Source: a virus. From it: 20,721 nt of DNA. The stretch's first letter is position 1; each line of letters begins with the position of its first letter. The DNA lies in the IMG/VR virus record IMGVR_UViG_3300036772_000322, positions 1 through 20,721 of that record. One strand, 5' to 3'. This document shows positions 2,053-20,463 of this stretch, in pieces. The notes under the pieces were generated by a model. The model worked only from the letters and a program-made list of their open reading frames with translations. It was not told where the DNA came from and made no database searches. The translations under genes and the position numbers were made by a program.

Positions 2053-4868
2053 CAGGGACCAGCCGGCGGCGGACCACCGGGGCTAGGTGGTCGTGGCAAC
2101 GGTGGGCCGCCTGGTCCGGCAACCAACCCAGCGATCGCACGATTGGCAATCTGCCCATACGCGGTCGGCAACTGTCCGCTCTGCAGCGCCTGCCGCACGC
2201 CCATTGCGGTTGCCGGGTCCGGCTGCGCGGGCCGTGGCATCTGGGTCGGCTGGTTCGGGTTCGGCATCATCGGCCGGCCCTGCGGCGGACCCTGTGGCCG
2301 CTGCTGCTGCGGACCTCCTGGCTGCGGCTGCTGCAGCGATTGCACGCCGGTTGCCGGCTGCATCGGCGAGGTCGGCGGCGGCACGTCAGGCAGCAGCCCG
2401 ATGCGCGGCGCGCCGCTCTGCATGGCCTGCTGGAACTCGGTCAGGCTCGGCACCGGCGTGCCGAACTGGGCTGCGGCAACCCAGGTCTTGGTCCATGCGT
2501 CCAGCGCCGCTTTGTCGCGTTGCAGGTCGTCGTCCTGCAGCGCCTTGGCCCGCTCCGTCTGCGCCTTGCCGCGGTCGGTCTCCAGATCGGCGGCGTTCTT
2601 CTGCTGCTGGGCCATCGCCAGCAACTGGCTGTCGCTCGGCTGGTTGTTGGGCGGCGGCGGCTGCCAGCCCGGCGGCAACGCCTTGAAGTAGCTGGACACG
2701 TCGGCGATGTTGGCCGTCTCCAGCATACGCGCCAGCGTGTTCCGGTATTCCGGTATCCCGACCAGCGGATTGTCCATGCCGGTCTGGGTAATGATCATCT
2801 CCTGCTTGCCGGCGATCTGGCTGAGCATCGCCAACCGCTCCATCGGCATGCCCTTGCCGCCGACGTTCACCGATGCCTGCCACTGGGTGGCGAGCGCCCG
2901 AGGGTCGATCTGCACGAACTCGCCGCGGATGCGGATGGTGTTCGGCCGGTCCTGTTGGCGGGCCAGCATCTTCAACAGGCCATGATATAACGGCGCTAGA
3001 CCTGTTTCGGCCAAGGTCCGCGCCATCATGTCGAGGCGGTCCTGCGCGGCACTCGTCTGCTGGCTGATCGCAATCGGCGCGGTGGATTGCAATTCGTCCA
3101 CGGTAAGCCCTTGGCTCGCCCGGGTGATCCCCGTCCTGCTCTCTCTGACCGCTTCGAGCACATCGAGGATCGGCAGCGCCTCCTTGCCCTGGAACGGCTT
3201 GACCAACTCGGTCACGGCGCCCTGCTGCGCGACGCGGATGATGCTGCCGATGGCGGTCTGCCGGATGTCCGCCTGATTGACCTGACCCAAGGTCATCACG
3301 GTGCGCGGATACATCGACTGACCCAGGCTATCGAGGGTCGCGCGCATCACCCGGCTCTGCAGCCGTTGCAGGTCCATCACCATGTCGGCCTGGCTCATGC
3401 CGATCACGCGCCCCGGCTCGCGATACGGAGTAAAACAAGCCAGCGGGATTTCGTCGCAGCGTTCCCAGCGGATCATCCGCACCATGTCGCCAAGACAGTG
3501 CACATGCAGCAATTCGGCGCGGTGGTCGTTGTCGGCGTCGCAGCGTATCCAGCCCTCGATGTAGCGGCACATCGCCATGGATTTATCGTTGGGCGGACCG
3601 CCGCGCATGTTGTAGCCGGACAGCGGATCGCGCGACACGGCTTCGGTGCGGCGCCAGATCGACATGTCGCCGACCGTGTTGGTCAGCACGTCGTACTCTG
3701 GCAACCCGGCCTCGATCAGCTCGGTGGCCGGCACGTCGCGGACGTGGAACACCGCGCGCGCGGACTGCACGGTGTTGGCGTCCGGCACAATCCAGACGCA
3801 GTCGGACGGTACGTTCTCGACCACCGGCCACGCCTGCTGCGCGGTGCGGTGGATGGTCGCGGACCAATATTCCGGCGGGCCGCCCTGCTGCAGATACATC
3901 ATGCCGTCCGGCGTGCGCTGTATCCCCTGCATCTCATCCTGCGTCATCGGCCGCCGTATGATGCGCTGGGTTTCGATACCGGGCTGGGACAGCAGTATCT
4001 GCAATTGCGGCAATATGAGGTTGTTGCACACCTCGACGCGCGACTCCTGCAGCTTGCCCCAGTGCCAGCGCACCCAGCCGGCTTTTCTGGTCAGCGCATC
4101 GAGCAACGCGTCATGCAGGATCTGCCAGCCGGGGTTGGCGGTGAACAGCGCCCAGCGCGCATAGTCGGTGGCCTGACGGGCGAGCAGTGCGGCCTGCTGG
4201 TCGTTGCCGGTGATTTCGTAGCTGATCGGCTCGAACGACACCGGGTCCTCCACCCCGGTGAACACCCGCAGCAGAGACGGCAAGGTACTGCGGATGGTGT
4301 CGCGGACGACAGTGAGCACCAGATGGCTGCGGCCCTTGAGTTCGGTCTCGTCGCCAAAACCCTCGCCGCGATAGTAGCGGTTGGCGCTGATGCGCTCATT
4401 GTGCAGGTAGTTGTCGTAGGTCTGTGCGTTCTTGAAATAGAACTGCACGATGCCCTGGATTTCGGTGTCGGTCTTGCCCAGGCGTTCATAAATTATTTCC
4501 TGTTGCCAAGGCACCTCGTCGGGTTTGGCGGCGGGTATGAGCCCCTTGGCATAGGGCCGGATGGCTGCCGGTATGTCGCTGTTGTCGTCGGGCGGGATGT
4601 CGTCGCGCTTCGGCGCGATCAGCTGCATCAGGACGTGTTCCTGGCCGATCGGCGAGCCGGTGGGTCGCAGCAGCGTGGGCAGTTGCGGCAGTGGCGGTGG
4701 CGTTGATCCACCCATCATGCCCTGTGGCTGTCCTGGCGGCATACCTTGCGGCGGCCCAGGGGCCTGACCACCAGGCGGCATCATGCCAGGCGCCACAGGC
4801 CCTTGGGGCATGCCTGGAGGCCGCATCGGCATCTGGCCGGGAGGCATCGGTGGCAGCACGCCGCTCAT
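2052..4868 (-). CDS. Portal protein, P22-like family
   Basis: A 938-aa protein that should form the dodecameric ring at the capsid vertex through which DNA is packaged and ejected. The middle (about 130-720) has the layout and wording of P22-type portals: AQTYDNYLHNERISANRYYR early, an acidic clip/wing region (DNDHRAELLHVHCLGDMVR), GMSQADMVMDLQRLQSRVMR, and the late SVNVGGKGMPMERLAML segment. P22 gp1 is 725 aa, so this protein carries extra ends: residues 1-50 are a Pro/Gly/Met-rich collagen-like run and about 730-938 a helical then Pro/Gln-rich tail. It overlaps the upstream 64-aa gene by ATGA. Its position downstream of the large terminase fits. The family call is strong; the role of the extensions is unknown. 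Confidence 0.92.
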   Translation of the reverse strand: MSGVLPPMPPGQMPMRPPGMPQGPVAPGMMPPGGQAPGPPQGMPPGQPQGMMGGSTPPPLPQLPTLLRPTGSPIGQEHVLMQLIAPKRDDIPPDDNSDIPAAIRPYAKGLIPAAKPDEVPWQQEIIYERLGKTDTEIQGIVQFYFKNAQTYDNYLHNERISANRYYRGEGFGDETELKGRSHLVLTVVRDTIRSTLPSLLRVFTGVEDPVSFEPISYEITGNDQQAALLARQATDYARWALFTANPGWQILHDALLDALTRKAGWVRWHWGKLQESRVEVCNNLILPQLQILLSQPGIETQRIIRRPMTQDEMQGIQRTPDGMMYLQQGGPPEYWSATIHRTAQQAWPVVENVPSDCVWIVPDANTVQSARAVFHVRDVPATELIEAGLPEYDVLTNTVGDMSIWRRTEAVSRDPLSGYNMRGGPPNDKSMAMCRYIEGWIRCDADNDHRAELLHVHCLGDMVRMIRWERCDEIPLACFTPYREPGRVIGMSQADMVMDLQRLQSRVMRATLDSLGQSMYPRTVMTLGQVNQADIRQTAIGSIIRVAQQGAVTELVKPFQGKEALPILDVLEAVRESRTGITRASQGLTVDELQSTAPIAISQQTSAAQDRLDMMARTLAETGLAPLYHGLLKMLARQQDRPNTIRIRGEFVQIDPRALATQWQASVNVGGKGMPMERLAMLSQIAGKQEMIITQTGMDNPLVGIPEYRNTLARMLETANIADVSSYFKALPPGWQPPPPNNQPSDSQLLAMAQQQKNAADLETDRGKAQTERAKALQDDDLQRDKAALDAWTKTWVAAAQFGTPVPSLTEFQQAMQSGAPRIGLLPDVPPPTSPMQPATGVQSLQQPQPGGPQQQRPQGPPQGRPMMPNPNQPTQMPRPAQPDPATAMGVRQALQSGQLPTAYGQIANRAIAGLVAGPGGPPLPRPPSPGGPPPAGP

Positions 4869-5059
4869 GGCTTCAGCTTCTCGGCCAGGTGGTCATACTG
4901 CGCATCGAACCGCTTGCGGAGATCGTTGAGCCGCTTGCCCCAGCCTGCGTCGATGCGCTCGGTGCGTGTCGCCAGTTCCATTGCGATGCGTTCCAGCCGC
5001 GCCATCCGCCACGCCATGTCCTGCGTTGCACAGTGCCGCAGCAGGTCCTCGTCGCTCAT
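4865..5059 (-). CDS. Hypothetical phage protein, 64 aa
   Basis: A short helical, charged protein beginning MSDEDLLRHCATQDMAWRMA. The start at 5059 is chosen because ATG overlaps the stop of the upstream membrane-protein gene (ATGA); longer forms would overlap that gene fully. The stop overlaps the portal start. No domain is recognised. Likely coiled-coil (RMARLERIAMELATRTERID). It lies between a membrane peptide and portal, and its function is unknown. Confidence 0.75.
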   Translation of the reverse strand: MSDEDLLRHCATQDMAWRMARLERIAMELATRTERIDAGWGKRLNDLRKRFDAQYDHLAEKLKP

Positions 5060-5232
5060 CGCCACCACCCGAACAACAGCAGGATCAGCAGCACGAGCAC
5101 GACGATGCCGAGGCCGCCGATGCCGTAGCTGTAATACGGATAGGTGCCGTAATAGCCGCCGCGCCAACCCCAACCGCCACCGAACAACAGCAGGATCAGC
5201 AGCACCACCAGTAGAATACCGAGCGGGCTCAT
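5056..5232 (-). CDS. Small two-helix membrane protein, DUF3309-like
   Basis: A 58-aa protein with two near-identical hydrophobic segments, LGILLVVLLILLLFGGG and LGIVVLVLLILLLFGWW, flanking a Gly/Tyr/Trp-rich loop (GGYYGTYPYYSYGIGG). The layout resembles the short DUF3309-type membrane proteins common in proteobacteria. The two hydrophobic segments are coded by an exact 26-bp direct repeat (5069-5094 and 5180-5205), so the protein arose by internal duplication or keeps a repeat. Start: ATG at 5232, four bases after the previous stop; a TTG at 5259 would be an upstream alternative. It sits between terminase and portal genes, an odd place for a membrane protein. Function is unknown. Confidence 0.75.
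   Translation of the reverse strand: MSPLGILLVVLLILLLFGGGWGWRGGYYGTYPYYSYGIGGLGIVVLVLLILLLFGWWR
5069..5205. repeat. 26-bp exact direct repeat, copies 111 bp apart
   Basis: Copies at 5069-5094 and 5180-5205, both within the 58-aa membrane protein gene. Spacing of 111 bp is 37 codons, so both copies are read in the same frame and code for the same hydrophobic core (LLILLLFG). Confidence 0.9.
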
Positions 5233-7270: not shown

Positions 7271-7636
7271 CTATTCCGTGGGCGTTGGCGCATCGAGTAA
7301 GTTGGCAGGCAGTGACTGTGGTTGTTCGCTGTCGATGGTCTGCGGCGCTGCCTGGCGTTGTGCGAGTTCGGCGCTCACAGCGATGGCGGCGAGCAGATGT
7401 AGTTGCACTGGTGACGATCCATCACCGGCGGTGAGTTGCAATGGCACGATCTTGCCAATGAGGCCCATGAACGCCACTGGGTTTTCCTCAGCCTGACGTG
7501 CGAGATAATTGACGCCACCGACTTTTTGTAGCGCTTTCTCGACCATCTCCTTGATGGATTGCGGCACTTTGTTGGGAAAACCTGGCGGCCTTCCAGTGGA
7601 GACCAGGTTTTGCAGTGATCGAGCGGCTACGGGCAT
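7271..7636 (-). CDS. terS: Probable terminase small subunit
   Basis: A 121-aa protein two small genes upstream of the large terminase. The N-terminus GRPPGFPNKVPQSIKEMVEKAL has the GRPxGxxNK lead-in seen before helical DNA-binding segments in many phage small-terminase-like proteins; a second conserved-looking stretch is AFMGLIGKIVPLQLTAGDG. Expected role: recognition of the packaging site and regulation of the large subunit. The ribosome site before ATG 7636 is weak. The family link rests on motif wording and gene order; a general phage DNA-binding protein is the alternative. Confidence 0.7.
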   Translation of the reverse strand: MPVAARSLQNLVSTGRPPGFPNKVPQSIKEMVEKALQKVGGVNYLARQAEENPVAFMGLIGKIVPLQLTAGDGSSPVQLHLLAAIAVSAELAQRQAAPQTIDSEQPQSLPANLLDAPTPTE

Positions 7637-7661
7637 CGCAAGTTATCGCAAAGCAATTGAA

Positions 7662-7853
7662 TCAAGGCGGGCTCTTTTGTCTCTGTGCGCGAGACGTTTT
7701 GTTGCGGGCCGCGCCCTTGGCGGTCGCCTTCACGCTGCCTTTCTTGAGGTCGCCGGCTTTCTGCAGCGAGGCCACAGCGATCGGCCACGCGCTCTTGGTC
7801 GGAACGCCTCTGCCTTTGATGCGACTGACCGCTTTGTCCAATAGACCCGGAAT
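7662..7853 (-). CDS. 63-aa phage protein with apparent ATT start codon
   Basis: An open frame with clear coding character ending at 7662. It resembles small phage head-region proteins with the pattern LLDKAVSRIKGRG...AWPIAVASLQKAGDLKKGS, then a Lys/Ala/Arg-rich tail. An in-frame TAG lies four codons before the ATT, and there is no ATG or GTG start: the only early candidates are ATT at 7853, placed five bases after a perfect AGGAGG, and TTG at 7841, which is 17 bases from that site. ATT therefore fits best, giving a first Met and PGLLDKAV. It is the first gene of the late operon. The function of this family is unknown. Confidence 0.75.
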   Translation of the reverse strand: MPGLLDKAVSRIKGRGVPTKSAWPIAVASLQKAGDLKKGSVKATAKGAARNKTSRAQRQKSPP

Positions 7854-7864
7854 CGCCGCCTCCT
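7847..7864 (-). promoter_or_regulatory. Perfect Shine-Dalgarno before an ATT codon
   Basis: On the minus strand AGGAGG is followed by CGGCG and ATT (7851-7853). The spacing of five bases is ideal and no ATG occurs nearby in any useful frame. This site decides the start of the 63-aa gene. Confidence 0.7.
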
Positions 7865-7917
7865 ATGGTGAGGTTTTTCTGTGGGTTATCGGTCGTGGTT
7901 TAGAGTAGATTGGAGCT
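7854..7917. other. Divergent intergenic gap, no clear promoter
   Basis: Separates the late operon (minus) from the inserted nuclease gene (plus). No convincing -35/-10 pair was found for the late operon, in keeping with expression by read-through from the early operon. On the plus strand TAGAGT near 7901 is only a weak -10 candidate for the nuclease gene. Confidence 0.35.
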
Positions 7918-8406
7918 ATGCATCAGAAACACAAAGGCGCCTTAGCTGAGTTGCATGCCTGCGCTTGGCTGCTGAAACAAGGCTACGAGGTATTTCGAAA
8001 TGTTTCGCAGCATGGGATTGCTGACCTGATTGCATGGCGCCCTGGTCAGATGCCGATCATGATTGACGTGACAGCGCTGTACATCCGCGTGGCCGCTGAT
8101 GGGAAGAGTTGCGGCGCCAATGCGGTAAAGCCGAAGCATGCCTTGAGGACTGATGTGCGGTTTCTTTACGTGGACGCTCAGACCCACACTTGTGGGTTTG
8201 ATATACCTGTTTTAGTTGCATCGTTAGGCTACACCCTCCGACCCGTGCTCCAGGTAGAGCGCAAGATCTGTTCTGTGGAAGGTTGCGGCAAGAAGCATTC
8301 GGCCAGAGGGTTGTGCAAGAACCATTATTGTCAAGCCTTTATCACCCCTGCGCTACGAGAGAAGCGGTTGGAACAGAGACGGTCCTTAGCGCTCCGAACA
8401 GCATAA
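7918..8406 (+). CDS. PD-(D/E)XK-like nuclease with zinc-finger tail
   Basis: A 162-aa protein. The N-terminal half has the outline of small PD-(D/E)XK enzymes of the group I intron endonuclease/Holliday-resolvase type: KGALAELHACAWLLKQGYEV (Glu11), then GIADLIAW (Asp36), then MPIMIDVT (Asp50). The usual E/DxK lysine is replaced: Asp50-Val-Thr. Residues 118-136 (CSVEGCGKKHSARGLCKNH) form a Cys-x4-Cys-x9-Cys-x2-His zinc-knuckle like those attached to phage HNH enzymes. The gene opposes both neighbouring operons, is only about 50% GC in the lines counted (43% in 8161-8220), and its last 65 bases overlap the antiterminator gene tail to tail. All this suggests a mobile, free-standing homing-type gene. 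Whether it is catalytically active is uncertain. Confidence 0.7.
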   Translation: MHQKHKGALAELHACAWLLKQGYEVFRNVSQHGIADLIAWRPGQMPIMIDVTALYIRVAADGKSCGANAVKPKHALRTDVRFLYVDAQTHTCGFDIPVLVASLGYTLRPVLQVERKICSVEGCGKKHSARGLCKNHYCQAFITPALREKRLEQRRSLALRTA

Positions 8407-8905
8407 CTGCCACTTTGGCCCTTTCCCCCAGCACATCCAACACTAGGCCGGGATGACCCTCTAGGGAGCCTCTGGAGAGCGCTACAGCGGTTCCGGCGGC
8501 GATCTTGGTATCTTCCTGCGCCCGAGCCTGCTCGGCCTCCAGCGCGCTCCTGACGGCTTCCACAGCGGCTTGTGGGACTATGCCTGGACGACCATCGGCC
8601 ATGAGCAGGCGTCGGACGCCGCTGGTGTGCTGGATCGGCGCCCAGTGGCGGTCGACCTGGACGAACACGTAGGACGTGAACAACGGGGCGAGGACGTGGT
8701 GGCGCAGGGTTGGCAGCGAGCGGTCGCGGCGTAGGACGCGGACCAGCGGCAGGAAGGTGACGTAGCCCTGGCGCTCGAGGTTGGCGACGGCCCAGCGTTC
8801 GGCTTGCGGGTGGGTTTGGCAGACGGCCCAATAGCTACCGCACCGGCGCGGCGTTAGGTCCGGTTCGGCCGCATCTAACCGTCTGGCTGGTAGAGCGTCA
8901 AGCAT
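8342..8905 (-). CDS. NusG/RfaH-family transcription antiterminator
   Basis: A 187-aa protein. Residues about 22-120 form an NGN domain (GSYWAVCQTHPQAERWAVANL, FLPLVRVLRR, APLFTSYVFVQVDRHWAPIQ) and about 135-187 a KOW-type domain (VALSRGSLEGHPGLVLDVL, then AKVAVMLFG). It should bind RNA polymerase at the beta-prime clamp helices and suppress pausing or termination. Start: ATG at 8905, five bases after the stop of the 78-aa gene; longer forms read through that gene in another frame. As the last gene of the early operon, facing the packaging genes, it is a candidate late-gene switch taking the place of a lambda Q protein. The 3' end overlaps the inserted plus-strand nuclease gene. Confidence 0.88.
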   Translation of the reverse strand: MLDALPARRLDAAEPDLTPRRCGSYWAVCQTHPQAERWAVANLERQGYVTFLPLVRVLRRDRSLPTLRHHVLAPLFTSYVFVQVDRHWAPIQHTSGVRRLLMADGRPGIVPQAAVEAVRSALEAEQARAQEDTKIAAGTAVALSRGSLEGHPGLVLDVLGERAKVAVMLFGALRTVSVPTASLVAQG

Positions 8906-8910
8906 CGGCG

Positions 8911-9147
8911 TCAGTGTTTCGTTGCATCGAGTTGGTCCTCGATGCCGCGGTGGACGTTGTTGAGCAGGACGATGACCCAGCCCCTGGCGGCTTCGAGGCG
9001 GAACTCTGGCTCGATGCCGTGCAGGAGCAGCGACATCGCATAGCCCATGCAGGCGAGGGAGTTCTCGAGCTGGCAGCCGTGGAGGGTGGCGAGGATGGCG
9101 TGGGCGTGTGCGTCCATGTCGTGGACGGCATCGGCGAGGGTGGTCAC
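8911..9147 (-). CDS. Hypothetical phage protein, 78 aa
   Basis: A small helical protein, coupled by ATGA to the replication gene upstream. It contains a largely hydrophobic helix (LACMGYAMSLLLHGI) and the segment EFRLEAARGWVIVLLNNVH. No family is recognised. Position between replication initiator and antiterminator suggests an early accessory role. Confidence 0.75.
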   Translation of the reverse strand: MTTLADAVHDMDAHAHAILATLHGCQLENSLACMGYAMSLLLHGIEPEFRLEAARGWVIVLLNNVHRGIEDQLDATKH

Positions 9148-13583: not shown

Positions 13584-13784
13584 TCAGGCGGCCTCCGCCG
13601 GCTCGAAAAAGTCGTTGGGCTGGACCTTCCCGCAGGTCGCGGAGGCGATCCTGGCCATGACAGCCGGCTTCGGCGTCCGCTCGCCGTTGATGTAGCGATG
13701 GATCGCCTGAACGCTCACGCCGAGGCGATCAGCGAACACCGAGATGGGGATGGCGTGGGTATCGAGATACGCGCGAAGCTGCAT
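13584..13784 (-). CDS. Cro-like HTH regulator
   Basis: A 66-aa single-domain XRE/Cro-type helix-turn-helix protein: AYLDTHAIPISVFADRLGVS, with the recognition helix in VQAIHRYINGERTPKP. Divergent from the CI-like gene and first in the leftward early operon, as Cro is in lambdoid phages. It should bind the same operators and turn down the repressor gene. No ribosome binding site precedes the ATG; instead a good -10 (CATAAT) ends five bases before it, so the mRNA is probably leaderless. Confidence 0.85.
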   Translation of the reverse strand: MQLRAYLDTHAIPISVFADRLGVSVQAIHRYINGERTPKPAVMARIASATCGKVQPNDFFEPAEAA

Positions 13785-13789
13785 GGGGC

Positions 13790-13819
13790 ATTATGACCAG
13801 AGTGGTTAACTCATGTCCA
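13790..13819 (-). promoter_or_regulatory. Leftward early (cro) promoter, probably leaderless
   Basis: On the minus strand: -35 TGGACA (13814-13819), an 18-bp spacer, -10 CATAAT (13790-13795), then GCCCC and the ATG. Transcription would begin at or next to the ATG. The 11-bp operator at 13796-13806 fills the spacer right up to the -10. Confidence 0.7.
13796..13806. promoter_or_regulatory. Operator O1 (ACCA-N3-TGGT)
   Basis: ACCAGAGTGGT, perfect arms. It lies inside the cro promoter spacer, abutting the -10, so binding would block polymerase. Confidence 0.75.
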
Positions 13820-13830
13820 GCCCTTAATTC

Positions 13831-13841
13831 ACCAATTTGGT
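13831..13841. promoter_or_regulatory. Operator O2 (ACCA-N3-TGGT)
   Basis: ACCAATTTGGT, perfect arms extended to five bases. It lies between the divergent promoters, upstream of the cro -35 and near the expected -35 of the repressor promoter, where bound CI could activate its own gene. Confidence 0.75.
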
Positions 13842-13854
13842 TCTATCACGAATC

Positions 13855-13865
13855 ACCACATTGGC
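13855..13865. promoter_or_regulatory. Operator O3 (one mismatch)
   Basis: ACCACATTGGC, one departure from the ACCA-N3-TGGT pattern. It abuts the candidate -10 (GATCAT, 13866-13871) of the repressor gene, as O1 abuts the cro -10. A weaker site here would suit negative autoregulation. Confidence 0.6.
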
Positions 13866-13876
13866 GATCATCCGGT
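13866..13876 (+). promoter_or_regulatory. Candidate repressor-maintenance -10, leaderless
   Basis: GATCAT (4/6 of the -10 consensus) is followed by five bases and the ATG of the CI-like gene, the same geometry as on the cro side, and there is no ribosome site. No good -35 is seen, as expected for an activator-dependent maintenance promoter. Confidence 0.45.
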
Positions 13877-14224
13877 ATGCCGAACCGGATCAAGCAACTT
13901 CGCCTCGACAACGGGATGACGTTGAAACAGGTCGCTGCCAATGCAGGGACCAGCGTCCAGCAAATCTACAAGCTAGAGCGTGGTGATCGCCGACTGACGG
14001 ACGATTGGATGCGGAGAATCTCTCGCGCTCTAGGAGTCCCTGTTGCGGCGCTTTTGCCTGATCTTCCGGTAGATAATCGGCAATTCGTCGAGGACCCGGA
14101 GGAGATCAAAGTCCTCCGGTGGTGGCGCGAGATGGGGCCTGAAGAGCGGCGCATGATTGCGATCTTTGCGCGGGATAAAGGGATCGATCTGCTCAGCGAT
14201 CACCCGAAGAAGCGGCGGGCCTAG
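13877..14224 (+). CDS. CI-like XRE-family repressor, short form
   Basis: A 115-aa protein. Residues 1-58 are an XRE helix-turn-helix domain: IKQLRLDNGMTLKQVAANAG, with the recognition helix in TSVQQIYKLERGDRRL, and DWMRRISRALGVPVAALLP. The C-terminal part (KVLRWWREMGPEERRMIAIF) is a helical segment probably used for dimerisation. It lacks the S24/LexA-type peptidase domain of lambda CI, so RecA-driven self-cleavage is not expected and induction must work another way. Start: ATG 13877; the in-frame ATG at 13793 would read through the operators and is rejected. It should keep the prophage silent by binding the ACCA-N3-TGGT sites. Confidence 0.85.
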   Translation: MPNRIKQLRLDNGMTLKQVAANAGTSVQQIYKLERGDRRLTDDWMRRISRALGVPVAALLPDLPVDNRQFVEDPEEIKVLRWWREMGPEERRMIAIFARDKGIDLLSDHPKKRRA

Positions 14225-15950: not shown

Positions 15951-16435
15951 GCACCACGACCTTTGCTGACGGCCTCGCCGCTGGCCTGAGAGACGCTGTG
16001 GCGGCCACTACGGCCTCGGTGGGCAGCGCAGGCCGCAGCTTCACCCGCGCCGTCCAGGCCGTCTCCCAGGCCACTGACGTGGTGGATGTCATGCGGGCCG
16101 CGGTCGACGTGGTGGTGGCTAGTGAGGCGCTCCACCGGGCCGCCATCGCCGCCGAGACCGCCGCGCGCGCCTCCCTGGCTGCCGCCATGGAAAGCTCGGG
16201 CGCCACCACGATCGCCGCCGAGCACCAGACCGCGCACCTGGCACGCAAGCCCGCATTCCTCAGTATCAACGATGGCTCGCTGATCCCGCGCGAGTTCTAC
16301 GTCCAGCCGCCACCGAAACTCGATGAGCGGGCGGTGAAGTCAGCGCTCAAGGACGGCCAGGAAGTGCCTGGTGTGTCGCTCGCCATCCCCAACGCCATGA
16401 GCCTGGTCATCCGGGCGAGGAAGGAACAGCCATGA
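15947..16435 (+). CDS. Gp157-like phage protein
   Basis: Starts with GTG overlapping the previous stop (GTGA). A 162-aa protein; residues 1-100 are Ala-rich helices. The C-terminal segment (IPREFYVQPPPKLDERAVKS, ALKDGQEVPGVSLAIPN, SLVIRAR) has the wording of the Siphovirus Gp157 family end: a folded tail with D...ALK.G..VPG and a final beta strand. Gp157-type proteins often sit beside single-strand annealing genes, and here it directly precedes RecT by ATGA overlap. The family match covers mainly the C-terminus, so the call is moderate. Confidence 0.65.
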   Translation: MSTTTFADGLAAGLRDAVAATTASVGSAGRSFTRAVQAVSQATDVVDVMRAAVDVVVASEALHRAAIAAETAARASLAAAMESSGATTIAAEHQTAHLARKPAFLSINDGSLIPREFYVQPPPKLDERAVKSALKDGQEVPGVSLAIPNAMSLVIRARKEQP

Positions 16436-17460
16436 GCCAGACAGCAACAGCGGAGGCGCCGCGCCCCGCAGTCGAGACCGAAGTCAGGTCGGCGCTGGAC
16501 GACATCATCCACCGCATGGAGACGGTGCAGCAGCGTCCCGCGCCGGTGCGCCTGAAAAGCTGGGAGGAAATTGAGAGATTCGCCGAAAAAGCGGCGCGCT
16601 CCGGCATGGTTCCCCGTGACTACATCGGCAAGCCGGACGCGATCTGCATCGCGGTGCAGATGGGCAGCGAGCTCGGGCTGGCGCCGATGCAGGCGATCCA
16701 GAACATCGCGGTCGTCAACGGCAGCCCGGCGATCTGGGGCGATGCGATCCCCGGCCTGTGCCGTGCATCCGGCAAATGCCGCAGTGTTCGGGAATGGCAC
16801 GAAGGCGAGGGGGATGATCTGACGTACTACTGCGAGGCCATCCGGGTGGACGACCCGCAGCCGGTGCGCGGCAAGTTCAGCGTCGCGGACGCGAAGCGCG
16901 CCAAACTTTGGTCGGATGAGCCGAAGCGGAAAAAGCAGGGGCGTGACGGGCCGTATGAGGTCGACGCCGGCCCTTGGTATAGCTACCCCGAGCGGATGCT
17001 GCAGATGCGCGCCCGCGGGTTCGCCCTTCGCGATGCGTTCCCCGATGTGCTGAAGGGGTTGCTGAGCGCCGAGGAGGCGCAGGACATTCCGTTCGAGGCG
17101 ACTGGACTGAAGCCAGCCATGCCGGCGCAGGAGCCTGTGGCTGCTCAGCCGTCCGAGCGGGATCGGCTCAATGCCTCCGTCCCGCTGACCCGCGATGTAC
17201 CGAAGATGACGCTGCGGGAATGGGCCGACGATCTGCTGGCGCGGTGCAATGCAGCGAACACCACCGAGGTGGCCGACGCGATCCTGCTCGAGGAGCGGGT
17301 GATGAAGCTGGACGACCCGGACACCAAGATCGGACCCGCGATGCGCCGCGATCTCCTACTTGCCCGCCAGGCGATGGTGGATCGGGTCTACGCGGAGCCG
17401 CCGGACACAGAGGACTGGCCGGCTGAGCCGGAGAAGGAATCAATGCTGACCAGCTCCTAG
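16432..17460 (+). CDS. recT: RecT-family single-strand annealing protein
   Basis: A 342-aa recombinase that anneals complementary single strands in phage recombination and replication. The family hallmark is present at 67-110: KPDAICIAVQMGSELGLAPM, then QAIQNIAVVNGSPAIWGDAI. Further conserved parts are the Trp/Tyr-containing WYSYPERMLQMRARGFALRD (182-201) and the acidic end of the core near 220. The C-terminal 110 residues are a variable linker and helix. No RecE/exonuclease gene is visible next to it; the VRR-NUC protein of the other operon, or a gene outside the window, may supply the nuclease. Confidence 0.93.
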   Translation: MSQTATAEAPRPAVETEVRSALDDIIHRMETVQQRPAPVRLKSWEEIERFAEKAARSGMVPRDYIGKPDAICIAVQMGSELGLAPMQAIQNIAVVNGSPAIWGDAIPGLCRASGKCRSVREWHEGEGDDLTYYCEAIRVDDPQPVRGKFSVADAKRAKLWSDEPKRKKQGRDGPYEVDAGPWYSYPERMLQMRARGFALRDAFPDVLKGLLSAEEAQDIPFEATGLKPAMPAQEPVAAQPSERDRLNASVPLTRDVPKMTLREWADDLLARCNAANTTEVADAILLEERVMKLDDPDTKIGPAMRRDLLLARQAMVDRVYAEPPDTEDWPAEPEKESMLTSS

Positions 17461-17543: not shown

Positions 17544-17652
17544 CTGGCCGCGATAATCGCAGTTATCACGGGCAATGGAATTTCCGGCGCCACGAGTCGG
17601 CAAACTTTACACTCGCGCCGCCGGCTGACCGCTAAGCCATTGATTTCGCTGG

Positions 17653-17668
17653 TGGCACAAAATTTGCA
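17653..17668 (+). promoter_or_regulatory. Sigma-54 (-24/-12) promoter for the PEP-CTERM gene
   Basis: TGGCAC-N5-TTGCA, an exact match to the RpoN consensus, with the GG and GC pairs ten bases apart. Transcription would start near 17679, leaving a leader of about 100 bases that contains small hairpins such as GACGG-TAG-CCGTC (17690-17702). Nothing else is seen in 17544-17777. RpoN control is known for host PEP-CTERM regulons, which supports the call. Confidence 0.7.
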
Positions 17669-17777
17669 CTTGCTAGCCCCAGCGGCTGCGACGGTAGCCG
17701 TCAGGGCCACGCCGTTGACGGCATCCGTCTCTGGGACGGCGCGGCCCGCTCCTCTCTCCTTGCAAGGGAACCATACC

Positions 17778-18320
17778 ATGAAACGTCTATTACTCGCCGG
17801 CGCCGCCCTTATCGGCATCACCGGCAGCGCTTCCGCCGTGCCGATCGCCGCCGGGTCGGTGCTGAACGTCGTCGGAGCGGCCAACTTCAACGCCACGACC
17901 GTGACCAGCTCGACGCCGGCCGGGCTGACCCAGAACACCGGGTCCTTCATGGCGCTGGTGAATTGCCTGAGTTGTGTGACGGTCAACCAGCCGGCGTTCA
18001 CGTACTCCCCGGCCGTCGGGACCGGCCTGCTGTTCACCGTGTCCGAGTTGTCGTTGATGGCAACGATCACCCTCGATGCTGGCGGCACCAGCACGCCCAC
18101 GCTGAACGCCTTGACGATCGACGCCCCGGCAACGCTGACGATGACCGGGTTTGACGCGACCCCCGGTAATTTCGTCTGGACGATCAATCAGTTCGGCACG
18201 CTGATCGGGTCGTTCTCGGCGACCGCCGAGGCGAGTGCGGTGCCGGAGCCCGCCACGCTGGCGATCCTTGGCACCTCGATCCTCGGCCTGGGGTTGCTGC
18301 GCAGCCGCCGCCGCAGGTAG
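17778..18320 (+). CDS. PEP-CTERM sorting-signal surface protein
   Basis: A 180-aa secreted protein. The signal peptide is residues 1-20 (MKRLLLAGAALIGITGSASA, cleavage after the Ala-Ser-Ala). The body (21-154) is Thr/Val/Ala-rich and beta-like (TVTSSTPAGLTQNTGSF, ATITLDAGGTSTPTLN) with one close Cys pair (CLSC). The C-terminus (155-180) is a complete sorting signal: VPEPAT, a hydrophobic helix (LAILGTSILGLGLL) and RSRRRR. Such proteins are processed by exosortase (EpsH/XrtA) and placed at the surface, often with exopolysaccharide. No exosortase is in this window, so the host must provide it. ATG 17778 has AAGGGAA upstream. With its own promoter and terminator it is a lysogenic-conversion type cargo gene. 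Confidence 0.88.
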   Translation: MKRLLLAGAALIGITGSASAVPIAAGSVLNVVGAANFNATTVTSSTPAGLTQNTGSFMALVNCLSCVTVNQPAFTYSPAVGTGLLFTVSELSLMATITLDAGGTSTPTLNALTIDAPATLTMTGFDATPGNFVWTINQFGTLIGSFSATAEASAVPEPATLAILGTSILGLGLLRSRRRR

Positions 18321-18373
18321 CCTCCACACACGCTCCGGGTGGCTTGCCCGAGAGCGACCCATCAAACCAACTG

Positions 18374-18398
18374 ACCCCGGCCTGCCGGGGTTTTTCTT
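18374..18398 (+). terminator. Intrinsic terminator after the PEP-CTERM gene
   Basis: ACCCCGG-CCTG-CCGGGGT stem-loop followed by TTTTTCTT on the plus strand; a classic rho-independent terminator. It separates the cargo gene from the convergent lysis cassette. Confidence 0.9.
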
Positions 18399-18400
18399 AT

Positions 18401-18670
18401 CTACTCCTTGCCGCTGAGGCTGGGCAGCGGCGGCAGTGTGGTCTTGCCCGCGTGCGGGATCGGCAACGCCGTTTCCCTGTGGGCCGCCTGCTGCGGCGCC
18501 ACCGGCCTGGCCATGCTGCGCGGCAGCCGGAGCGCGCGGGCCTTGCTAATGACGGCCTTGGCGGTGCGGCCGATCCGAGCGCCGATCTGCGGCGAGGTGT
18601 AGCCCGCCGCGCGCATCTCGATCAGGATCTTCACCTCGTCCGGCGGCCACTCGTCGTTGATGCTTCTCAT
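18401..18670 (-). CDS. GcrA-like DNA-binding protein
   Basis: An 89-aa protein. Residues 5-50 (WPPDEVKILIEMRAAGYTSP, QIGARIGRTAKAVISKARAL, RLPR) match the N-terminal HTH of GcrA: a Trp-led helix, a Ser-x-QIA-type turn and a recognition helix before the H/A-LGL-like end. GcrA is an alphaproteobacterial sigma-70 cofactor controlled by GANTC methylation. The tail here is short and Pro-rich, so the sigma-binding C-terminal domain of cellular GcrA is absent or diverged. Start 18670 is chosen for its ATGA overlap with the holin-like gene. A phage GcrA mimic could retune host cell-cycle promoters or regulate lysis. Confidence 0.78.
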   Translation of the reverse strand: MRSINDEWPPDEVKILIEMRAAGYTSPQIGARIGRTAKAVISKARALRLPRSMARPVAPQQAAHRETALPIPHAGKTTLPPLPSLSGKE

Positions 18671-18879
18671 TTGTCCACCCGCGCTAGGCAGGCGGCGATC
18701 ACCGGCGTGATCATCCGCTCGCGCGCCTCGTCCCTGCGGTCCAGGAACCACAGGAAACCGGCGAGGAACAGCAGCACTAGCAGCAGCAGCAGCAGGAACT
18801 GGGCCGGTAGAGCTGACACCAGACGGTTGCCGACCTGGGCGACCGCACCGACGACGCTGTGCGCCTCCTGCTCGGTCAT
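18667..18879 (-). CDS. Holin-like single-helix membrane protein
   Basis: A 70-aa protein: an amphipathic N-terminus (EQEAHSVVGAVAQVGNRLVS), one strong Leu-rich membrane helix at about 28-46 (FLLLLLLVLLFLAGFLWFL), then a charged cytoplasmic-type end (DRRDEARERM). The size and place directly after the cell-wall amidase fit a holin or a spanin-like lysis accessory. The Leu run is coded by a CAG/GCA-type repeat (about 18769-18796). ATGA overlaps on both sides. Identity as a holin is inferred from context. Confidence 0.68.
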   Translation of the reverse strand: MTEQEAHSVVGAVAQVGNRLVSALPAQFLLLLLLVLLFLAGFLWFLDRRDEARERMITPVIAACLARVDK

Positions 18880-19244
18880 GCTACCTCAACGACGTAGAAC
18901 CGTCCGGCATCATCGACCGCAGGACCAGCGCCGTGCTTCTCGCGGATGGTTCTTTCTTGTGCGCCGCCATTGCGCCCGACCCAGGTGTCGAACACGCGGA
19001 TTGCCCCACGTTCTTCATGGTGGAGAAACAACGCGGCGTGGCTGCTCCCGTCGGTTCGATTGCCGTAGTGATCGCCGTGGAATGTTGCGACAGCTGCGCC
19101 GTATGGGAGATCTGGCACGTCCTGCACCCTTGCGCCACGCCGCCAGTGCGCGGTCGGCGGCAGCCCAGTGGCCTCACGAACCATGGGCACGCAGTGTCCG
19201 GCCATGCCGACGAGGTGCTCGTGATTGTTTGCTGTGAACGGCAT
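18876..19244 (-). CDS. BPSL0067-like cysteine amidase, probable endolysin
   Basis: A 122-aa protein resembling the BPSL0067 group (NlpC/P60-like and Tae4-like peptidoglycan amidases). Visible hallmarks are GHCVPMVREATGLPPTAHWR with the presumed nucleophile Cys18, GAAVATFHGDHYGNR, SHAALFL with His69, and RVFDTWV with Asp86, giving a Cys-His-Asp set in the expected order. No signal peptide is present, in line with a holin-dependent lysin. It leads a three-gene cassette with the holin-like and GcrA-like genes. An AGGG sits upstream of ATG 19244. The enzyme would cut peptide cross-links of the cell wall at the end of infection. Confidence 0.8.
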   Translation of the reverse strand: MPFTANNHEHLVGMAGHCVPMVREATGLPPTAHWRRGARVQDVPDLPYGAAVATFHGDHYGNRTDGSSHAALFLHHEERGAIRVFDTWVGRNGGAQERTIREKHGAGPAVDDAGRFYVVEVA

Positions 19245-19327
19245 TAGTCATGCCCTATACTGGCGGGTGACGCGGTGCTGATAACGCCGCGCCACCCTGA
19301 CCACCGATGGTGATGGAGACACCACAA
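19245..19327. promoter_or_regulatory. Divergent lysis / endonuclease intergenic region
   Basis: TATACT at 19256-19261 is a good plus-strand -10 but the -35 is weak. Downstream lies a large hairpin: GGGTGACGCGG (19265-19275) pairs with CCGCGCCACCC (19287-19297) with one mismatch and an 11-base loop. A smaller CACC-GAT-GGTG hairpin lies beside the GGAG ribosome site of the endonuclease gene and could restrain its translation. Confidence 0.5.
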
Positions 19328-19867
19328 ATGGCTGAGCATTCCTATTGTAACTATGCGATCTTTGACAGCCTCGGTGTCGTACGCTGGATCGGTGCTACCA
19401 GACAAAGTCTGTACCTGCGGAAGAAACAGCACCGCAGGACAGCGCGTCAGGCGCGATATATCCACCACGATCCTAGTTGGCGGGCTCTGCTGGTAGACGG
19501 TGACTTTCAGATGGTCGGCTTCGCCTTCCGATTGACGCGGGAGGAGGCGCTTCGTAACGAGAAGGCGGCTATCTCGGCATTTGGCCGCAAGGATCTTGGC
19601 ACAGGCCAGCTTTACAATCTGGGCGACGGCGGGTTGGGGCTGCTTAACCCAACGCCAGAATTGCGAGTTGCGAAGCAGAAGGCGATCGCTGGAGAAAATC
19701 ATGCCACGCTGACCGCCGCGGCAACCGCTACGTGGCGCGGGCGAAAACATACGAGACGAACACTCGCTAAGCAGCGCGCTCACATCAAAACCCCTGAGCA
19801 CCGTGAAAAGCTTCGACAAGCCACCCTGGCCTACAATGCGAGGAAGGCGGCGGCTGCCACCGAGTGA
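19328..19867 (+). CDS. GIY-YIG homing-type endonuclease with NUMOD3
   Basis: A 179-aa free-standing endonuclease of the seg/I-TevI type. The N-terminal domain (about 5-95) has a diverged GIY-YIG core: CNYAIFDSLGVVRWIGATRQ, SLYLRKKQH with the Arg/Lys-His helix, and REEALRNEKAAISAF with the metal-binding Glu. The C-terminal part holds NUMOD3-like DNA-binding wording (WRGRKHTRRTLAKQRAHIKT, PEHREKLRQATL). Start 19328 is chosen for its GGAG site; the ATG at 19307 is less good. The gene is about 47-57% GC in the lines counted, below its neighbours, and interrupts the lysis/structural area. It overlaps the convergent proline-rich gene by 37 bp, where an 8-bp-stem hairpin (19849-19880) spans both ends. 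Probably a mobile gene. Confidence 0.85.
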   Translation: MAEHSYCNYAIFDSLGVVRWIGATRQSLYLRKKQHRRTARQARYIHHDPSWRALLVDGDFQMVGFAFRLTREEALRNEKAAISAFGRKDLGTGQLYNLGDGGLGLLNPTPELRVAKQKAIAGENHATLTAAATATWRGRKHTRRTLAKQRAHIKTPEHREKLRQATLAYNARKAAAATE

Positions 19868-20463
19868 AGCGACAGCCGCCAGTCATTAGTTAGCGCTTCC
19901 GGAGTCGGCGCGATCGGATTAGCCGGCCGTTCGCCGCCCGGCACCGGCTGGTGGCTCGGATAGGCTGGCGCACCGCCCCATACGTCCAGGCTCGGATCGA
20001 CCACGGTGTAGCCGATCACTTTCAACCCGCCCCCTGCGCTGACCGCGCAGATCGCCACCAGGAATTTCTGCGACGGCAGATCATGCCCCGGCGCCCCAGG
20101 TCCAGGATTTACCTGCGGCGGCGGCCCACCCGGAGCGATTGGTGGGGTTGGAAAGCCCGGCCCCTGGCTTGGGCCTGGAGGTGCGCCGCCGCCACTGATC
20201 GGGTGTGACGGACGCCCATAGCCCGGCAGGGTGTTGTCCACCACCGGCGGCCAGATCGAGCCGGGCGGCATCGGGTGACCGGGCGGCAGTTGGATCGGCG
20301 GCCAGATGCCGACCGGCGGCGGCCAGATGCCGGGCGGCGGCGGCGGCAGCGTGTTGTCGACGAAGGGCGGCGCGCCGCCCCAGATGCCGGGAGGCACGCC
20401 GGGCAGCGAATTGTCAGGTCCACCGGGAGCGCCGGTGACAATCAAAGCAGGTGTAGCGACCAT
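19831..20463 (-). CDS. Proline-rich phage protein, 210 aa
   Basis: Residues about 10-130 are a Pro/Gly-rich, probably extended region with imperfect repeats built from DNTLP/DNSLP, PPGIWPP and PGHPMPPG units. A compact C-terminal domain follows (SQKFLVAICAVSAGGGLKVI, GYTVVDPSLDVWGG), then a polar end. Pro-rich phage proteins with DNTLPG-like repeats occur near structural or lysis genes, but their role is unknown; a fibre-like virion decoration is possible. The ATG at 20463 has GGAGAG upstream with longish spacing. Alternative: a frame enriched by base composition, but the non-repetitive C-terminal domain argues for a real gene. Confidence 0.7.
   Translation of the reverse strand: MVATPALIVTGAPGGPDNSLPGVPPGIWGGAPPFVDNTLPPPPPGIWPPPVGIWPPIQLPPGHPMPPGSIWPPVVDNTLPGYGRPSHPISGGGAPPGPSQGPGFPTPPIAPGGPPPQVNPGPGAPGHDLPSQKFLVAICAVSAGGGLKVIGYTVVDPSLDVWGGAPAYPSHQPVPGGERPANPIAPTPEALTNDWRLSLHSVAAAAFLAL

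Follow-up and report, generated by a model that had tools for sequence, protein, structure and literature searches.

Why should a phage carry a gene for a PEP-CTERM protein, and what decides when that gene is expressed? To our knowledge, PEP-CTERM/exosortase systems are widespread and the roles of their substrates are mostly unknown. A full-text literature search of partial coverage turned up no paper describing PEP-CTERM genes in phages. The window analysed here, the whole of a 20,721-base virus record (IMG/VR record IMGVR_UViG_3300036772_000322), contains such a gene. An earlier note on this DNA had placed the gene in a prophage, between RecT and a lysis cassette, with an exact sigma-54 promoter and a terminator of its own, and had proposed that it looks like a conversion gene wired to host envelope control and dependent on the host exosortase.

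A PEP-CTERM gene flanked by phage genes

The window carries terminase, portal and scaffold genes and a replication region, followed by a divergent Cro/CI-like pair (13584-13784, minus strand, and 13793-14224, plus strand) on the same arm as the PEP-CTERM gene, and by Gp157-like and RecT genes on the plus strand. We recognised no host DNA in the record, which is a virus fragment of about 20.7 kb, and the label "prophage" goes further than the record does. The nearest named phages are Sinorhizobium phage phiM5-like podoviruses of Alphaproteobacteria (portal 35% and terL 48% identical).

The PEP-CTERM gene has phage genes on both flanks, in the position that the earlier note gave it. Upstream lies the RecT-like annealing protein (16432..17460, plus strand; PF03837, phrog_561), whose counterpart in the sister phage G003 is 77% identical. 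The convergent neighbour is a GcrA-like/D5-like small regulator (18401..18670, minus strand; phrog_323, with PF07750 below cut-off), which is 90% identical in locus L055. A GcrA-like gene is compatible with an alphaproteobacterial host, although this is only a hint. Beyond it follow a small transmembrane, holin-like protein (18667..18879, minus strand), for which family and profile searches gave no convincing match, and a BPSL0067-family protein, a probable lysin (18876..19244, minus strand; NF033857, 66.4 vs 27 bits). Because these lysis genes lie on the opposite strand, the PEP-CTERM gene is not part of a co-transcribed lysis cassette. There is also a GIY-YIG homing-endonuclease-like ORF (19307-19867, plus strand), with the lysin gene on one side and a proline-rich ORF (19831-20463, minus strand) on the other.

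The gene itself is complete. It runs from an ATG at 17778 to 18320 on the plus strand, 8 nt after a ribosome-binding site (AAGGGA, 17764..17769), and encodes a protein of 180 aa, P0001, that scores above the cut-offs of both PF07589 (22.8 vs 20.7 bits) and TIGR02595 (22.3 vs 16 bits). Judged by eye and hydropathy, its N-terminus, MKRLLLAGAALIGITGSASA, resembles a signal peptide, with a basic start, a hydrophobic core and AxA. The C-terminal sorting signal (18241..18317, residues 155-180, tail VPEPATLAILGTSILGLGLLRSRRRR) consists of VPEP, a transmembrane helix and RSRRRR. Two AlphaFold predictions had a pLDDT of 45 and gave no recognisable fold.

P0001 has a full-length viral homologue, 66% identical, in G001 (locus L002), where a second PEP-CTERM gene stands directly behind it, and further homologues in L055, L210 and L248 (43-47% identical). 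Cysteines C63 and C66 are common to all five proteins. P0001 had no match among 50,697 phage records, which sets the window apart from phiM5 and its relatives, or among 72,556 plasmid records. Plasmid searches for a host yielded nothing useful, and genome-contig scans with an alignment of the protein and with terL found no related locus.

A host-type regulatory element upstream of the gene

Haft 2006 (PMC1569441) describes, ahead of proteobacterial PEP-CTERM genes, a sigma-54 site preceded by a 17-nt box whose last letters are TTTACA; the spacer between the two measures 62.8 ± 10.6 nt (range 32-92). This element was reported upstream of 99 of 167 genes, and its phylogenetic profile matches PrsR, PrsK and PrsT. 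The window has the same arrangement. The exact promoter reported by the earlier note, TGGCAC-AAAAT-TTGCA at 17653..17668 on the plus strand, is the one exact match to TGGCAC-N5-TTGCA in the whole 20.7 kb, where an order-1 model expects 0.03. Upstream of it lies a 17-nt box, AGTCGGCAAACTTTACA (17595..17611, plus strand), which ends in TTTACA and which we matched to the published motif 1, the predicted PrsR site, by its description in the text of that paper. An order-1 model of the intergenic stretch gives the box and promoter together a chance probability of about 5e-6. The 41-nt spacer between them is about 2 SD below the published mean, yet inside the published range. Within the spacer lies an IHF-like site, AATCAATGGCTTA (17633..17645, minus strand), an exact match to WATCARNNNNTTR. 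The earlier note had missed both the box and the IHF site, and their presence beside the promoter makes the promoter claim far stronger.

Judged from the position of the -12 element, transcription from this promoter would start near 17679, giving a predicted leader of about 99 nt (17679..17777, plus strand) that is G+C rich. We dropped a structured leader RNA as a candidate because the folding z-score is only -1.3. An intrinsic terminator with an 8-pair stem and a T run follows the gene (18373..18392, plus strand), as the earlier note had described. A simple scan found no sigma-70 promoter for the gene.

How does this unit compare with known bacterial ones? The window shares with the systems of Haft 2006 a signal peptide, a PEP-CTERM tail, the TTTACA box, the -24/-12 site and a layout in which one gene forms the unit behind a long upstream stretch. 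It differs in being carried by a phage, in its shorter spacer and in its IHF site, as IHF is never mentioned in the text of that paper. RpoN1 dependence has been shown experimentally for pepA of Aquincola tertiaricarbonis (PMC9850573), which has TGGCAC at -24. The window gene would likewise be of the RpoN type, with the same hexamer and a terminator behind the gene. However, PepA has no phage context, and P0001 is not a PepA, since it scores 37 bits against floc_PepA (NF033554), below the cut-off of 80, with the similarity in the C-terminal half.

A sister phage keeps the element and carries a different gene

G003 is a contig of 38,486 bp whose ends overlap the window by 276 bp at 98.9%. The two phages are closely related (terL 98.5% and portal 93% identical as proteins), and G003 has, across the end overlap, the order recT, PEP-CTERM gene, convergent lysin. 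Its PEP-CTERM protein is a different one, only 27% identical to P0001. The intergenic regions can be aligned in blocks only (GTCGG-AA-CTTTACACTCGCGCC, CTAAG-CATTGA, GGTGG and AATTGCA/TTGCTAGCCCC), and these surviving blocks are the box (TGTCGGAAATCTTTACA in G003), the IHF-like stretch and the -24/-12 core (GG/TTGCA). Of the -24 hexamer TGGCAC, G003 keeps just TGG (TGGACT), so its promoter is probably weaker. Since a sister phage has another PEP-CTERM gene at the same spot behind the same element, the gene is a true phage gene and not misjoined host DNA.

The element by itself predicts PEP-CTERM genes

We scanned IMG/VR for the element from DNA alone, with protein information unused. A broad pattern, CTTTACA with TGGCAC-N5-TTGCW, gave mostly chance matches (PEP-CTERM genes at 3 of 80 loci), and we therefore refined it to GTCG-N5-CTTTACA-N33..63-TGGnnC-N5-TTGC. 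This pattern found 22 loci, and at 14 of them a PEP-CTERM gene starts 5-65 nt downstream. L159 has the box, an exact IHF site and TGGCAC-N5-TTGCT with an out-of-phase spacer of 55, and no PEP-CTERM gene was found downstream of it.

The scan loci with a PEP-CTERM gene, together with the window, G003, L064, L074 and L135, make 18 element-bearing loci when the related L306 and L311 are counted as one. Their spacers measure 41-42, 49-52 or 62-63 nt only, in steps of about one helical turn. Periodicity this strong arose in 0 of 20,000 uniform draws, and the exact IHF consensus occurs in 8 of the 18 spacers (0.06 expected from shuffled spacers), or in 14 with one mismatch at most (1.2 in shuffles); both tests were set up after the sequences had been seen, on loci that are not fully independent where related. 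Helical-turn spacing and frequent IHF consensus may be features of the PrsR regulon at large. Among the loci clearly surrounded by phage genes, most have the 41-42-nt spacer (the window, G003, L309, L260, L308, L312 and L064), and L309 repeats the order exonuclease, RecT, PEP-CTERM gene. L302 and L307, which are phage loci, and L300 have spacers of 49-51 nt, while loci of the 62-63-nt class may for the most part be host sequence at the edges of proviruses.

PEP-CTERM genes recur in phages in two settings

How common are such genes in phages? Scanning with two DNA patterns for the VPEPA tail returned at least 93 matches, of which we judged at least 90 to be true PEP-CTERM ORFs, in at least 88 viral records. 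Among the matches listed, terminase was present in 14 of 25 tested records. The bipartite element lies within 350 nt of 3 of 76 PEP-CTERM genes, compared with 1 of 3266 control ORFs, again among the matches listed. We accordingly rejected the idea that phage PEP-CTERM genes generally have a sigma-54 promoter. Nor is the element tied to the protein family, because the P0001 homologues in G001 and L055 lack it.

Many element-less PEP-CTERM genes among the matches listed belong to a late operon with proline-rich, holin-like and GcrA-like genes and terL. Of 92 PEP-CTERM regions in the same set, 27 have a same-strand gene homologous to the window's holin-like gene no more than 1.5 kb away. The same proline-rich gene is present in 25 and a GcrA-like gene in 12, and terL comes next in several. 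In L055 the PEP-CTERM gene begins 3 nt after the lysin gene, and L072 has a 4-bp overlap between its PEP-CTERM and holin-like genes. Related podophages with PEP-CTERM genes in such late lysis/packaging operons are L055, L063, L070, L072, L073, L205, L217, L254 and L260. Phage PEP-CTERM genes thus occur in two settings, one late in lysis/packaging operons without a promoter of their own and one host-wired, which includes the window. L260 combines both, with the element, the PEP-CTERM gene and, 20 nt on, the holin-like gene.

Other genes accompany phage PEP-CTERM genes. L063 has a right-handed beta-helix (NosD-like) gene (2600-3709) and an N6/N4 DNA methylase gene (3896-5203) beside its PEP-CTERM gene, and homologues of both recur near others. 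Related large proteins of 583-701 aa, of no recognised family, are encoded near the PEP-CTERM genes of L051 (16399-18150) and L002 (9283-11388), in phages that are otherwise different. In L003, a record of 77,970 bp, a PEPxxWA-type PEP-CTERM gene (7359-9050) is followed by a second one (both PF07589 matches), without a sigma-54 element.

Host factors and lysogeny

An exosortase was found in none of 52 viral records searched, and neither the window nor G003 encodes a sigma-54 activator; the phages would therefore need both from their hosts. A tyrosine recombinase was absent from 40 of 42 records and a serine recombinase from 29 records. At L129 and L135 integrase matches were found, so the PEP-CTERM genes there may belong to host DNA bordering a provirus, and the same may hold for L306, whose record carries a sigma-54 activator. 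Neither recombinase type was found in the window or G003, though CI/Cro-like genes are present. The sequence supports an independent promoter and terminator for the gene, and lysogenic conversion is an uncertain reading.

Discussion

We propose, with a probability of about 0.68, that the window gene is an accessory gene of the phage, a moron, whose product is an exosortase-sorted surface protein and whose expression is tied to the host's PEP-CTERM/exopolysaccharide regulon. The gene itself, its phage surroundings and the three-part regulatory element are well supported, and the proposed mode of action is modelled on known systems. Like phage morons and lysogenic conversion genes, it has by its sequence an independent promoter and terminator, occupies an accessory spot beside recT and has its cargo swapped between close relatives. 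It would differ from them in a promoter that needs host sigma-54 and an enhancer-binding protein, and in a product that needs a host exosortase. PrsK would switch on the host activator PrsR, which would bind the TTTACA box; IHF would bend the 41-nt spacer, and sigma-54 RNA polymerase would start near 17679 and stop at the terminator immediately behind the gene. The signal peptide would export P0001 and its C-terminal helix would hold it in the inner membrane until the host exosortase cuts it at PEP, releasing it to the outer surface or the exopolysaccharide. The host's matrix programme would then probably decide when the phage protein is made. The most likely outcome is an altered surface or matrix of infected or lysogenic cells, for example in phage access or aggregation.

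The main rival is a role in the lytic cycle, in which these genes encode late proteins that act at the envelope or matrix as cells lyse and virions are released, with the sigma-54 element here as an added route of expression. PEP-CTERM genes in the late operons of many other phages suggest that such proteins act during infection, either instead of or in addition to lysogeny, and the scarcity of tyrosine recombinases, the lysin-adjacent gene of L055 and the combined arrangement in L260 agree with this. However, the recT-side genes of the window, G003 and L309 lie opposite or away from the lysis genes and have their own promoter, and that of the window has its own terminator, which speaks against a lytic role for them. 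A special case of the reading that we prefer is superinfection exclusion, with the matured protein masking or modifying a surface receptor in lysogens. Exclusion genes often show different versions at the same spot in near-identical phages. The unlike ectodomains of the window and G003 fit this pattern, as does the CI/Cro-like pair on the same arm, but no fold was recognised in P0001, and we entertain exclusion as a tentative idea.

Could the gene instead have no phage function, or not belong to the phage at all? Element-bearing PEP-CTERM genes are common in proteobacterial hosts, and one might have been acquired by chance, promoter included, as a passenger of no benefit to the phage. We consider this improbable, because G003 keeps the element and its place with different cargo, because at least 88 viral records have PEP-CTERM genes, and because gene families and neighbours are shared among phages. 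A chimeric assembly of host and phage DNA would account for a host-type gene and promoter. It was rejected and is for practical purposes refuted, since the independent contig G003 has the same recT-element-PEP-CTERM order and phage genes flank the gene in the window and at other loci.

The accessory-gene reading allows a broader, more speculative one. Phages of exopolysaccharide formers might, recurrently, sense the matrix state through the host's PrsK/PrsR-IHF-sigma-54 switch and place proteins by means of the host exosortase, either shielding lysogens or aiding virion exit from the matrix at lysis. Phage PEP-CTERM genes would also provide small natural substrates and promoters with which to test exosortase sorting and PrsR regulation, and the helically phased element of box, IHF site and sigma-54 promoter can serve as a search pattern for such genes in further genomes. 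Recurrent exosortase substrates in phages, some of them under a host element, would connect the biology of phages with the formation of biofilms and flocs.
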